This document shows positions 25,651-64,000 of a stretch of 64,000 nucleotides of DNA, piece after piece (within the stretch, counting starts at the first letter, position 1; every line of letters starts with the position of its first letter). The DNA is taken from assembly GCA_022510865.1 (NCBI GenBank), contig JAFLSQ010000002.1, positions 62,001-126,000 of the forward strand, read 5' to 3'. This DNA comes from Treponema sp. Lineage in GTDB: Bacteria > Spirochaetota > Spirochaetia > Treponematales > Treponemataceae. The position numbers were made by a program, and so were the translations under genes. The notes beneath the pieces were generated by a model. It saw nothing but the letters and a program-made list of their open reading frames with translations. It did not search any database and had not been told where the DNA came from.

Positions 25651-27459
25651 CTATCTTCCGAAAAATCCCCGGACTTTCTGCCAGAATGTCTTTTTAGGCT
25701 CGGGAGCGGGTGTGACAGCGTTCGCACCGCGCGATTTCTGTGATGATTTTCCGCCATTTGCGTTGTAGGATTTTTTCTTGTAATCGCCTTTTTTGTATAT
25801 ATCCCGGTAGGACTCTTTCTTGTAGTCGCCCTTCTTGTATATGTCCCGGTAGGATTCTTTCTTGAAGTCGTCTTTCTTGTATATGTCCCGGTAAGATTCT
25901 TTCTTGTAGTCGCTTTTCTTGTATGCGCCCGGAGCGGAATCCGGCTTTTTTCCGTCTGATTTTTTTTGCCCGCCGGTGTTTTTCTGCTGGTCGGATGCGA
26001 AAGTCTCCTTGTAGAGCCTCATGCGCTCATCATAGGAAAGCCCCGCCAATTTCTGCGGGTCAATGAAAGCCGCGCCCTTGCGCTTCTGGCCGCCCTTCCC
26101 CGAGCCGCCGTTTTTGCCCCCGGATTTTTTGTAGCCGTCTTTTTTCCCGTCATAAGACGTTCCGCCACCTGATTTTCCGCCGGAACGTCCGCCACGAGAA
26201 TCACGCGGCCTGTTATGAATGTCACCGTCACGGCCTTTGCGGTAGCCGCCGCGGTTATCATAATCATCATCCCCGCGCCAGTTCTCGGTCTTGATGTACA
26301 TTCCCGCTGACTTGTCCTCCTCCATCTGCTCAGGATACGCGACAGTCGCAGGAATCGACATCTCGATGTACCGCTCGATTGCGGGCAGATTGTAGACATC
26401 CTGCTCGCTGCAAAAAGTGTACGCTTTTCCGGTTCTGCCGGCGCGCGCAGTGCGCCCGATTCTGTGCACGTAATTCTCGGCCTCAACAGGAAGGTCATAA
26501 TTGATTACCATCGCAAGGTCGTCCACATCAATTCCGCGCGCGGCGACATCCGTGGCAACAAGAATTCTGATTTCCCCCGCCTTGAAACTTTTGAGAATTT
26601 GCAGGCGTTTTGACTGCGGCAAATCCCCAATCATGAATTCCGCCTTGATGCCGTTTATCACAAGACGCTTGGCGACAACCTCGCAGCACCTTTTTGTGTT
26701 GCAGAAGATTATCGCGCTCTCCGGGTTCTCATGCCTCAGAATGCCCACAAGAAGCTTCATTTTCTCATCGCTGGAGACGTGCAGAAGCTCCTGCTGAATC
26801 TCGCTCACGGTGATGTTCTCAGCCTCGATTGTAATCTCAACCGGGTCACGGGTGTATTCCCACGCAAGATTTTTCACATACGTGTTCAGCGTGGCAGAGA
26901 AAAGCATTGTCTGGCGGCTCTCTGCCTCGGGAAGGCATTTCAGGATTTTCCGCAGGTCATCGTAAAAGCCCATGTCGAACATACGGTCGGCCTCGTCAAT
27001 CACGCAGAAATGCGCGCCGGTCAAATCAAGGTTTCCGCCCTCGTTCAGGTCAATCACACGGCCGGGGGTTCCAATCAGAATGTCAACGCCTTTTTTGAGC
27101 GCGGCAATCTGCTTCTCATACCCAACGCCGCCGTACACGGAGAACGGACGCAGTCCGCTTGTTCCAACAAGAACCTTGGCCTCCTCCTCAATCTGCACGG
27201 CAAGCTCGCGCGTGGGGGCAAGAATCAGGCAGCGTTTTCCCGCGTTGCCCTCCTTGAGCATCTCGCTGATGACTGCCACAAGGTATGCGGCAGTCTTTCC
27301 GGTTCCAGTCTGGGACTGGACGTACAAATCAGGGCCTTTTCCGCCGCTTGCCTGCGACGCCTTAATCACCTGCTCCTGGACGGGCGTGCAGCTCACGTAC
27401 CCCGCCTGCTCAATCCCTTTTAAAAGTCTCTGGTCAAGACCAAATTCAACAAAATCCAT
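25651..27459 (-). CDS. DEAD-box ATP-dependent RNA helicase with basic repetitive C-terminus
   Basis: QTGTGKT, PTRELAVQ, DEAD (VIDEADRMFD), SAT, HRIGRTARAG. Confidence 0.95.
   Translation of the reverse strand: MDFVEFGLDQRLLKGIEQAGYVSCTPVQEQVIKASQASGGKGPDLYVQSQTGTGKTAAYLVAVISEMLKEGNAGKRCLILAPTRELAVQIEEEAKVLVGTSGLRPFSVYGGVGYEKQIAALKKGVDILIGTPGRVIDLNEGGNLDLTGAHFCVIDEADRMFDMGFYDDLRKILKCLPEAESRQTMLFSATLNTYVKNLAWEYTRDPVEITIEAENITVSEIQQELLHVSSDEKMKLLVGILRHENPESAIIFCNTKRCCEVVAKRLVINGIKAEFMIGDLPQSKRLQILKSFKAGEIRILVATDVAARGIDVDDLAMVINYDLPVEAENYVHRIGRTARAGRTGKAYTFCSEQDVYNLPAIERYIEMSIPATVAYPEQMEEDKSAGMYIKTENWRGDDDYDNRGGYRKGRDGDIHNRPRDSRGGRSGGKSGGGTSYDGKKDGYKKSGGKNGGSGKGGQKRKGAAFIDPQKLAGLSYDERMRLYKETFASDQQKNTGGQKKSDGKKPDSAPGAYKKSDYKKESYRDIYKKDDFKKESYRDIYKKGDYKKESYRDIYKKGDYKKKSYNANGGKSSQKSRGANAVTPAPEPKKTFWQKVRGFFGR
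25771..25925 (-). repeat. In-frame 42-bp tandem repeat coding KKxDYKKESYRDIY
   Basis: KKSDYKKESYRDIY / KKDDFKKESYRDIY / KKGDYKKESYRDIY / KKGDYKKKSYNANG. Confidence 0.9.
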
Positions 27460-28985: not shown

Positions 28986-30161
28986 ATGGACGCTCAGAAC
29001 GAAGACAGAACCGATTATCACGCCCGGATTTTCGCGAACAGGCTCAGAAAAAAATACAGGGAGCTGCGCAGGTGGGCGCGCAAAAACCGCGTGACCTGCT
29101 ACCGTCTCTATGACCGAGACATCCCCGAAGTGCCGCTCTGCGTGGATTTGTACGAGCTTCTGCCCGGCGGGATTGACTCGCCTATGGAGGCGATAAAATT
29201 CCTTGCCGCGCAGAACGCGCGGATTTCTGCGGGAGACACCGCGGACGAATCGGACATAAAATCCCGGACTTACGCAGTCATCTATCTTTATGAGAAATCC
29301 TACAAGAGCGGCTACGATGAGGCGTGGCTTTCTGTGATGGCCGCAAGCGCGGCGCAGGTTCTGGAAGTACCCGAGAATCACGTTGTGCGGAAATTCCGGG
29401 GCCGGAAAAATCACAAGAGCGATGATGACGACAGCCTTGCCCAGTACCAGAAGTCCGGCGCGTCCGCAGCGCAGGACATCACGATAAAAGGCATTGTTCA
29501 GGAGCAGGGGCAGATTTTCCATGTGGATTTGACAAGCTATCTTGACACCGGGCTTTTCCTTGACCACCGCCCGCTCCGTGAGGCAGTCCGCGCCCGGGCC
29601 GCAAAAAAACGCGTGCTGAACCTTTTCTGCTACACCGGAAGTTTCTCCGTCTATGCGGCGCAGGGAGGCGCAAAATCCGTGGAGTCTGTTGATTTATCGC
29701 ACACATACCTTGCATGGGCACAGGAGAATATGCGGGCGAACGGATTCACAGACAAAAAAAAGTATTCGTTCATCCGCGCGGACTGCGTGCGCTTTCTGCA
29801 AGAGAAGGCGCTTGACGCAAAGAAAGGCGCGCTCAAAAAAGACGATTTTTATGACCTGATTGTTCTGGATCCGCCGACGTTCAGCAACAGCAAGTCCGCG
29901 TCAAACGTGCTGGACATCAGGCGCGACTGGCCGCAGCTTGTGAAGGACTGCCTGAACATCCTTGCGCCCGGCGGAACGCTCTATTTCTCCTCGAACGCCG
30001 AGCACATAAAAATCGATGAGCAGAGGATTCCGGCAAGGACAATCAGCGAGAGCGCTTTCACCTGCACAGAAATCACGCAGGACACAATCCCCCGCGATTT
30101 TTCCGCCCGAAGACCGCACAAAGTGTGGGAATTCCGGCTGACACGCGCGCAAAGTTTCTAG
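28986..30161 (+). CDS. SAM-dependent methyltransferase, RlmK/RlmI-like 23S rRNA methyltransferase family
   Basis: GLFLDHRPLRE, VLNLFCYTGSFSVYAAQGGAKSVESVDLS, LIVLDPPTFSNSK. Confidence 0.88.
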   Translation: MDAQNEDRTDYHARIFANRLRKKYRELRRWARKNRVTCYRLYDRDIPEVPLCVDLYELLPGGIDSPMEAIKFLAAQNARISAGDTADESDIKSRTYAVIYLYEKSYKSGYDEAWLSVMAASAAQVLEVPENHVVRKFRGRKNHKSDDDDSLAQYQKSGASAAQDITIKGIVQEQGQIFHVDLTSYLDTGLFLDHRPLREAVRARAAKKRVLNLFCYTGSFSVYAAQGGAKSVESVDLSHTYLAWAQENMRANGFTDKKKYSFIRADCVRFLQEKALDAKKGALKKDDFYDLIVLDPPTFSNSKSASNVLDIRRDWPQLVKDCLNILAPGGTLYFSSNAEHIKIDEQRIPARTISESAFTCTEITQDTIPRDFSARRPHKVWEFRLTRAQSF

Positions 30162-30167
30162 CCCGCA

Positions 30168-30206
30168 CAAAAAACAAAAGCGGCCTCCGCAGCGCGCGGA
30201 GACCGC
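30168..30206 (-). terminator. Rho-independent terminator downstream of the LRR fragment
   Basis: GCGGTCTCCGC-GCGCT-GCGGAGGCCGC followed by CTTTTGTTTTTT on the minus strand. Confidence 0.75.
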
Positions 30207-30224: not shown

Positions 30225-30425
30225 TTAGGTCGTTTTCTTATAGATACCAGACCAACGATCGCTCACGTCAATTTCGTCATCAGTATCATAGTCATACCAG
30301 CCAACTGGGTCATCAAATGTCACAGACTGAAAGTTGATGCAACCAGCGAACGCACTCTTGCCGATTTTTGTAACGCTGGCAGGAATTACCACGTCACCAG
30401 TAAGACTGCAATTAAAAAAACGCAT
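30225..30425 (-). pseudogene. Truncated BspA-like leucine-rich repeat (LRR_5) fragment
   Basis: CSLTGDVVIPASVTKIGKSAFAGCINFQSVTF is one LRR_5 unit; no signal peptide; in-frame TGA upstream in the same frame. Confidence 0.65.
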
Positions 30426-30475: not shown

Positions 30476-30674
30476 CAGCCCAGGAACTCCGCAGTAACTC
30501 GCCTCCAAGCTCACAGGGTTTCATCTCCAAACCCTGCGGGCTTAACCACGCAACCTCACAGTGTTTCACCTTTAAGGCTACAGCGTTCCGGAGCAAAACA
30601 CTGTAGCCTTACGCCCGGAACCGTGCAGACTTGCAGCCAGAACACTATAGGCTTGCAGTCCAATCCATGCAGGG
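30476..30674. repeat. Degenerate 22-nt tandem array, about 9 units
   Basis: Units start at 30476, 30498, 30520, 30542 (23 nt), 30565, 30587, 30609, 30631 and 30653; conserved AA near positions 10-12 and CAG/CRG near 17-19. Confidence 0.7.
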
Positions 30675-30936: not shown

Positions 30937-31146
30937 TTATTTATCGCCCTGAATTCCGTAACGCTTGTTGAACCTGTCGATTCGGCCGGCGGTGTCAACA
31001 AGTTTCTGCTTTCCGGTGTAGAACGGATGGCATGCAGAGCAGATTTCAACCTGGATGTTCTCCACAGTTGAGCGGGTCTCAATCACGTTGCCGCAAAGAC
31101 AAGTGATTTTCGTAAGTTTGTACTCCGGGTGAATTCCCTTTTTCAT
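30937..31146 (-). CDS. rpmE: Ribosomal protein bL31 (Zn-binding form)
   Basis: [48 protein letters not shown]. Confidence 0.95.
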
Positions 31147-33951: not shown

Positions 33952-34263
33952 TCACACGCCTTCCTCGGGAGTGATTGCCCGCATCGCCTCTTTAAGCTCT
34001 TTTCCCGCTCGGAATGCCGCCACATAATGCGGCCCGACAGAAAGAATCTCTCCGCTCCTCGGATTCCTTGCCTCGGCCCTGCCCTTGCGCAGCTTAGGCT
34101 CAAAAGTGCCGAACCCGCGCAGCTCTATCACAGAGCCGACTTCCAGACTTTTCCTGAGCTGGAGGAGAAAGCTGTCAATCACAAGCGCGATGTCTTTTTT
34201 GTCCACAGCGACTGACTCATAGACGCTGTTCACCAAATCTTTTTTTGTGATTTTAGAGCGCAT
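33952..34263 (-). CDS. HU/IHF family DNA-binding protein
   Basis: ITKKDLVNSVYESVAVDKKDIALVIDSFL ... ELRGFGTFEPKLRKGRAEARNPRSGE. Confidence 0.93.
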   Translation of the reverse strand: MRSKITKKDLVNSVYESVAVDKKDIALVIDSFLLQLRKSLEVGSVIELRGFGTFEPKLRKGRAEARNPRSGEILSVGPHYVAAFRAGKELKEAMRAITPEEGV

Positions 34264-62493: not shown

Positions 62494-63258
62494 TTAAAAA
62501 TCGAGGCTGCTGCAATCAGGAATCTCTGCGATTTTTCTGCCCGAAATCTCCAGCCTGACCTCATCTCCGCCCTCGCTTCGCACACGGTAAATCCCGTCCG
62601 GCGGAAGAATCTGGCTTGTAAATCCGTTTTTTCTGAGCGTGCTGATGTCAAGCCGGTAAGGTCTGGCAAGAAGCTCGGATGCGGTCGTGAAAAATCCTCT
62701 TTGAATCATGCCGCGGATATATGACGAGCTGACCCTCTCCTCCCCGCCCGCGCCATCACGGTAATAGACCGGCTCGACAAAAACGCACTCAACGTTCCGG
62801 CTGTCTGCCCAGTATTTTATTGCCTGAGTGTCCGTCGCGCCTTTGTAGCCGCACCTGAAATCAAAGCCTTCGGCAATCAGGCGCATTCTAGCGATGTTCA
62901 AAAGGATGTTCAGAAAATCAGTTCCCATGAGGCTTGCGAACGAGTCATCAAAATCAACGATGACCGCGAACGATATGCCGAGGCTCTCAAAAATCTCCAG
63001 CCGCTGCGCGAGCGTCGTGAGGTCGCCCATGTAGTCGCCGCTGTGCTTTATGCCGGGGAGCGGGCGGGAAAACGAGACGACTCCCGGGCGCAGATTTTTT
63101 GCGCGGCAGGACTCAACCAGCGCGGAGATGAGTTTTCTGTGCCCGAGGTGCACCCCGTCAAAACTGCCGACTGAGATGCCGGTTCCGGCCGAAAAAATCG
63201 GGATTTCGGAGCCGCTCTCCATTGCCTCAAGGATGTCGTTCCAAGTCAGAATCTGCAT
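62494..63258 (-). CDS. ribF: FAD synthetase (RibF-like), riboflavin kinase domain not recognisable
   Basis: GISVGSFDGVHLGHRKLI; FDFRCGYKGATDT; RVSSSYIRGMI; short C-terminus. Confidence 0.82.
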   Translation of the reverse strand: MQILTWNDILEAMESGSEIPIFSAGTGISVGSFDGVHLGHRKLISALVESCRAKNLRPGVVSFSRPLPGIKHSGDYMGDLTTLAQRLEIFESLGISFAVIVDFDDSFASLMGTDFLNILLNIARMRLIAEGFDFRCGYKGATDTQAIKYWADSRNVECVFVEPVYYRDGAGGEERVSSSYIRGMIQRGFFTTASELLARPYRLDISTLRKNGFTSQILPPDGIYRVRSEGGDEVRLEISGRKIAEIPDCSSLDF

Positions 63259-63278
63259 GAATGTATTATAAACCGTAG

Positions 63279-63307
63279 TTGCACAAATTACAAATAAGAG
63301 ATAGAAT
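63279..63307 (+). promoter_or_regulatory. Sigma70-type promoter for ilvE
   Basis: TTGCAC - 17 nt - TAGAAT, then GAGGGT before ATG 63364. Confidence 0.6.
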
Positions 63308-63363
63308 ATTTAGTGATAATAAATAACTTTAGCAGTACTAAAATTTTACACTGAGGGTAAAGT

Positions 63364-64000
63364 ATGGCAACAAAAAATCTTGACTGGGGCGATCTGCCTT
63401 TCGGCTACATGGAGACATCAAAAAGTTATGTGGCGAACTGGAAAAACGGCGAGTGGGATGACGGAGCGCTGACTTCCGACCACTCAATAAAAATCAGCGA
63501 GTGCGCGGGCGTTCTGCAATACGCGCAGACTGTTTTTGAGGGACTAAAGGCTTACACGACCGAGCACGGCGAGATTGTGACTTTCCGCCCGGATTTGAAC
63601 GCCGAGCGAATGGCGAATTCATGCGAGCGGCTTGAGATGCCCGTTTTCCCCAAAGAGCGTTTCATTGAGGCGGTGTTGCGGACAATCGAGGCGAACAAAG
63701 AGTGGGTTCCGCCTTATGGAAGCGGCGCGACACTTTACATCAGGCCGTTCATGTTCGGGTCAAGCCCGGTAATCGGCGTGAAGCCCGCGGACGAGTATCA
63801 GTTCAGGATTCTGGTCACGCCGGTAGGCCCTTATTTCAAAGGCGGTGTGAAGCCAATCAAAGTGAGGATATCAGACCTTGACCGCGCGGCTCCGCACGGA
63901 ACCGGAGACATCAAGGCCGGCCTGAACTACGCGATGAGCCTTCACAACATTGTGGACGCGCACAAATGCGGCTACGCCGAGAATATGTACCTTGATCCGG
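63364..64000 (+). CDS. ilvE: Branched-chain amino acid aminotransferase, truncated by the window end
   Basis: LQYAQTVFEGLKAY, FRPDLNAERMANSCERLEMP, LYIRPFMFGSSPVIGV. Confidence 0.92.
   Translation, partial: MATKNLDWGDLPFGYMETSKSYVANWKNGEWDDGALTSDHSIKISECAGVLQYAQTVFEGLKAYTTEHGEIVTFRPDLNAERMANSCERLEMPVFPKERFIEAVLRTIEANKEWVPPYGSGATLYIRPFMFGSSPVIGVKPADEYQFRILVTPVGPYFKGGVKPIKVRISDLDRAAPHGTGDIKAGLNYAMSLHNIVDAHKCGYAENMYLDP

Follow-up and report, generated by a model that had tools for sequence, protein, structure and literature searches.

A degenerate 22-bp satellite array in a Treponema genome and HU-HIG proteins as candidate readers of such arrays

We analyzed a stretch of 64,000 nucleotides (hereafter the window) from the Treponema sp. 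assembly GCA_022510865.1 (contig JAFLSQ010000002.1, positions 62,001 to 126,000). Within it, a 776-bp gap between a methyltransferase gene and rpmE holds an array of nine worn units of about 22 nt, together with a leucine-rich-repeat (LRR) fragment that is part of the context of the array but is not shown to belong to it (Table 1). Below, C numbers denote contigs of this genome (the window lies on C58), and G and L numbers denote genomes and loci of the comparison.

Table 1. Features at and around the array, in window coordinates.
Feature	Position	Strand	Description
Array	30476..30674	.	Nine contiguous degenerate units, eight of 22 nt and one of 23 nt; dyad-symmetric core AACCCTGCAGGGTT plus ~8-nt linker
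Inverted repeat	30507..30543	.	Two neighboring units in opposite orientation (AAGCTCACAGGGTTT / AAACCCTGCGGGCTT); arms 30507-30521/30529-30543, 87%
Inverted repeat	30573..30611	.	Two neighboring units in opposite orientation (TAAGGCTACAGCGTT / AACACTGTAGCCTTA); arms 30573-30587/30597-30611, 93%
LRR fragment	30225..30425	-	66-aa ORF, BspA-type (LRR_5), just beyond the array; absent from the syntenic loci of relatives
Hairpin	30180..30206	-	Strong, terminator-like, after the LRR fragment
rpmE	30937..31146	-	Ribosomal protein L31; flanking gene, conserved in synteny
Methyltransferase	28986..30161	+	Class I SAM-dependent methyltransferase; flanking gene, conserved in synteny
HU gene	33952-34263		Ordinary HU type; the nearest HU-type gene to the array
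Coding tandem repeat	25765-25947	-	42-nt repeat in the C-terminal tail of a DEAD-box RNA helicase, coding for 14-residue units (KKxxYKKESYRDIY-like)
Weak periodicity	63253-63367		Lag-22 periodicity of 0.53 in A+T-rich DNA; does not look like an array

A preliminary description made from sequence alone had reported about nine degenerate units of 22 nt (one of 23) at this site, and we confirm that the observation is real. The lag-22 identity of the region is 0.480 against 0.258±0.033 in 5000 dinucleotide shuffles, none of which reach it, and identity at lag 67 (22+22+23) is 0.553. No other 199-base stretch of the window has as high a lag-22 value. However, the array is worn: in leave-one-out scoring five of the nine units rank among the top ~15 of the ~128,000 positions scored in the window on both strands, while units 1, 2, 4 and 5 are poor matches. 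The array is too degenerate for Tandem Repeats Finder, which had been suggested as a check and does not report it even at score 30. The inverted pairs described earlier (AGGGTTT/AAACCCT and CTACAG/CTGTAG) are real and form part of the longer ones in Table 1. In place of a conserved AA near positions 10-12 and CAG/CRG near 17-19, the unit is better described from the AA onward as an imperfect ~14-bp dyad, AACCCTGCAGGGTT, plus ~8 nt, although the dyad symmetry of the window array taken alone is not significant (p 0.22). We agree that the array is neither CRISPR, as its units are contiguous and not separated by unique spacers, nor a reading frame; a spurious 90-aa plus-strand ORF crosses it, but the period is not a multiple of 3, no frame fits it, and there is no long conserved ORF. 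Rfam has no match here.

To place the locus in its lineage, we compared 20 genomes of the same genus in which the methyltransferase and rpmE are neighbors. Their gaps measure -4 to 575 bp (median about 105), none has an array in the stretch examined, and none of the relatives' loci matches the LRR fragment. Array and fragment are thus lineage-specific, although the closest genome compared shares only 66% identity in the methyltransferase, too little for recent history to be read. We also considered derivation of the array from the neighboring LRR gene, which has a 69-nt protein repeat, but rejected it because the array family occurs away from LRR genes, and no arrays were found near other LRR genes of this genome. 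Several BspA-type LRR genes sit at contig ends (C66, C99, C64, C80 and C113), so LRR copies probably break the assembly.

A blastn search against relatives and phages gave only two short hits, one in another family (L003, E 1.6e-5) and one that looks like chance (L004). In contrast, a sequence-only model of two-unit stretches found a second array in the same genome, on C55, and arrays in other Treponema genomes. These differ in sequence but share one grammar: AAA, a core of 8-10 bases, TTT, then a linker, repeating at 22-23. A pattern keeping only that grammar, (AA N10 TT N8) x5 with up to 2 mismatches, hits 129 of 196 genus genomes, with 10 to 104 matches in sixteen of them; these counts are only a guide, as some hits in A+T-rich DNA are chance and the reversed pattern used as a control also matches arrays. 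The genome under study has at least six arrays (C58, the window array; C55; C13; C77; C84; and C2), the whole genome having been scanned with patterns only. A scan of 84,980 species genomes with AAAC N7 GTTT N7 x3 gave 94 stretches, mainly in Bacteroidota and Treponema, but also in Kiritimatiellae, Anaerolineales, Beggiatoa relatives and others. When spacing was left free from 16 to 40, all matched Treponema units were 21-24 nt apart, whereas the same free pattern gave spacings of 20-34 in viral contigs, so the tight period is a property of the cellular arrays. One further 22-nt array, AACTTTACGGTGTCAAAGCAGG, lies between a kinase-like gene and a RelB/DinJ-like gene (L056:1455-1560, genome G068) on a contig that may be contamination.

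We next examined the anatomy of the class. In the 94 stretches, the seven core letters not fixed by the search pattern are complementary across the dyad in 53% of pairs, against 27.7±2.1% after column permutation. In 95 arrays, however, a base is as often complementary to the partner position in another unit as in its own, and a unit that deviates from its array is compensated in only 17% of cases. The arrays therefore share a palindromic consensus without pairing itself being maintained, which fits a DNA site but not an RNA or cruciform hairpin. A wedge model predicted curvature barely above a column-permuted null (mean z 0.77), and the observed AAA/TTT phasing, including the GTTT position, is not the most curved one. 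Arrays are mostly intergenic and, by rough gene calls, show no orientation bias relative to flanking genes (30 tandem, 9 convergent and 8 divergent, like other gaps), nor any promoter-side or terminator-side bias.

The neighbors of the arrays pointed to a possible reader. Arrays C55 and C77 both lie directly 5' of genes for HU-HIG proteins (PF18291, HU/IHF superfamily; NCBIfam TIGR01201 HU_rel), with E values of 2.3e-22 and 1.1e-23 respectively. Among 49 Treponema proteins taken from array flanks, HU-HIG is the commonest Pfam family (7 of 49) and most other families occur once; in a few cases the HU-HIG gene was chosen over a nearer dubious ORF, making the reverse test below the stronger one. 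In the Bacteroidota set only 3 of 96 array neighbors are HU-HIG, each within about 220 bp of its array.

For the reverse test, we listed all PF18291 matches in the 196 genus genomes and examined 73 HU-HIG genes with flanks for any period from 15 to 32. A 20-23-nt array (66-base window, identity at least 0.55, a criterion that misses worn arrays) lies within 1 kb of 42 of the 73, compared with 0 of 35 ordinary HU genes from the same genus (Fisher p = 3e-10) and 1 of 29 methyltransferase loci, and only periods 21-23 are enriched. Three of the 73 had been found through arrays; without them, 39 of 70 have an array at periods 21-24, against 0-2 of 70 for other sets of four periods. Because the loci are related to one another, the p-values overstate independence; after clustering of the proteins at 80% identity, 22 of 29 clusters have an array (20 without the array-found ones). 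The array is on the 5' side in 29 of 42 cases, as an operator would be, and most exceptions form a second subfamily, matching positions 1-120 of the model, in which the 22-23-nt array lies on the 3' side (L350, L354, L355, L356, L358, L364, L365, L369 and L370). These arrays, found without any palindromic pattern, are also dyadic, with 62% reaching p<=0.05 against column permutation. Across genomes, which are often fragmentary, 10 of 16 array-rich ones carry a clear HU-HIG gene against 39 of 180 others (p = 0.001). The remaining six lack a clear hit; in genomes G315 and G402 (L264 and others), array-rich with AAACTTGCCGAGTTT-type arrays but without a clear HU-HIG hit, another reader or a missed HU family is possible.

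The cultured rumen species Treponema saccharophilum carries an HU-HIG gene (protein WP_002701845.1) on plasmid pTS1 with a four-unit 21-nt palindromic array 5' of it (L412:2652-3375), the same array sequence as in genome G215 (L302). Among Bacteroides/Parabacteroides plasmid HU-family loci, two of three gave a period-22 signal of 0.59-0.61 that was not convincing by eye, and a search of IMG/VR found no HU-HIG relative. An AlphaFold model of HU-HIG built from a 4-row alignment was of low confidence, with HU/IHF structures as best but weak fold matches.

Cross-scoring of profiles splits the arrays of the genome under study into two sequence families and a singleton: the window array with C55 (z 6.7 and 4.7 both ways), C13 with C77 and C84, and C2 alone. 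One HU-HIG gene stands beside a member of each family, and the window array thus groups with C55, which lies 5' of a PF18291 gene, as a distal and more eroded member of that family. A period-23 signal upstream of a truncated third HU-HIG gene of this genome (L407) was too weak to count.

Together, these results lead us to favor, with moderate confidence, a model in which the window array is a distal, decaying binding array for an HU-HIG protein. In this view the units are imperfect dyad sites on double-stranded DNA spaced two helical turns apart, and HU-HIG dimers would bind unit after unit on one face of the helix. At C55 the protein would regulate its own gene from the adjacent array, while at distal arrays of the same sequence family, such as the one studied here, it would act as a nucleoid-organizing or locally regulating cluster. 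Our computations establish the periodicity, the dyad symmetry of the class, the sequence families within the genome, and the linkage and 5' placement at HU-HIG genes; that the HU-HIG protein binds, that units are filled cooperatively, that the gene is autoregulated and that the worn window copy is still bound are inferences. HU/IHF dimers are two-fold symmetric DNA binders, but ordinary HU proteins bind DNA with little sequence preference, and no HU-HIG gene is near the window array. The claim for the class is accordingly stronger than the claim for this copy. The earlier interpretation, a phased protein-binding or bent-DNA array, is partly supported: the two conditions set in advance as able to refute it, equal periodicity in shuffled sequence and an absence of other copies in related genomes, were both examined and neither held. 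Its protein-binding half gains strong indirect support from the dyad symmetry, the fixed two-turn spacing and the tight link to HU-HIG genes, whereas the bent-DNA half is not supported.

The array resembles the constant-length non-coding bacterial satellites of Subirana and Messeguer (PMC6749651; PMC8161180), which have a constant length (20-23 or 52 nt) and variable sequence, form several families of the same length in one genome, are patchy between species, and include non-coding families from the spirochete Leptospira and other groups. An unknown protein that needs a constant repeat size, such as a nucleoid protein, or RNA was proposed to explain them. The window array shares their unit length, its non-coding, intergenic position and the occurrence of several sequence groups in one genome, but it is far more degenerate; Tandem Repeats Finder, which is not the program or cut-off of those authors, misses it, while sister arrays are 64-80% alike. 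The dyad grammar (AAAC...GTTT), the occurrence of both unit orientations and the linkage to HU-HIG genes are not mentioned in the parts of those papers that we consulted. Nor did we find, in a literature search that was not exhaustive, any paper joining HU-HIG to satellites or a published array-binding role for HU-HIG. These satellites have been described as enigmatic, with no known reader, and a specific link to one DNA-binding protein family, with period specificity and a clean control in ordinary HU genes, turns this into a bench-testable question in T. saccharophilum and in Bacteroidota. A more speculative reading, which we regard as possible but less likely than not, is that 21-23-bp satellites are the DNA half of a protein-satellite system. 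Each HU-HIG paralogue would own a sequence family of dyad arrays, one beside its gene for self-control and others spread through the chromosome, where HU-HIG filaments would organize the nucleoid in the manner of a bacterial heterochromatin or centromere-like mark, with the window array as one of these distal marks.

The main alternative is that the array is a neutral satellite made by replication slippage that is decaying and does nothing, in which case HU-HIG linkage elsewhere says nothing about this copy. The window array is the most degenerate of those compared in this genome (lag identity 0.58 against 0.64-0.80 for C55, C13 and C77), and both its absence from the 20 syntenic relatives and the lack of orientation bias also speak for this view. 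However, a constant 21-23-nt period in unrelated sequences, dyads, and linkage to one protein family are not expected from slippage alone, and the window array still matches the C55 family; we consider a neutral origin unlikely but not negligible. It is much less likely that the units are binding sites for some other sequence-specific regulator of rpmE or of the LRR gene. Dyad symmetry and phasing suit any dimeric regulator, and the array lies 50 bp 5' of the LRR ORF, but arrays in general are not biased to divergent or promoter-side gaps, and family mates of the array lie beside unrelated genes, one of them an HU-HIG gene.

A role as RNA, with hairpins of neighboring units serving as attenuator, terminator or small RNA, appears equally improbable. 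The region has an MFE z of about -3.5 on both strands and two neighbor hairpins, and transcription of such satellites is reported for Bacillus coagulans (PMC8625621). Yet the z-score follows from a palindromic consensus, the class shows no compensatory change within or between units, there is no T-run at the array, and the only terminator-like site in the region is the hairpin after the LRR fragment. Least likely is a REP/BIME-like or MITE-like mobile repeat, despite the short intergenic palindromes in both orientations and several copies. The RAYT transposase family Y1_Tnp (PF01797) is absent from this genome and from the array-rich genomes G409, G087, G204, G186, G075 and G165. The BrickBuilt element of Porphyromonas gingivalis (PMC4596501), a Bacteroidota species, likewise has intergenic tandem 23-nt units in many copies per genome, but it has a leader and tail with terminal inverted repeats matching insertion sequences, whereas the arrays compared here (window, C55, C13 and C2) share no flanks or terminal repeats. 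In one Bacteroidales MAG (Hm464_bin103; L151, L162, L170, L186, L191, L193, L207, L213, L229, L232 and L233), by contrast, we observed many copies of an AAACATCGTATGTTT array, several with a shared left flank (GGTTGGGTG), so in that species the arrays may move as units.
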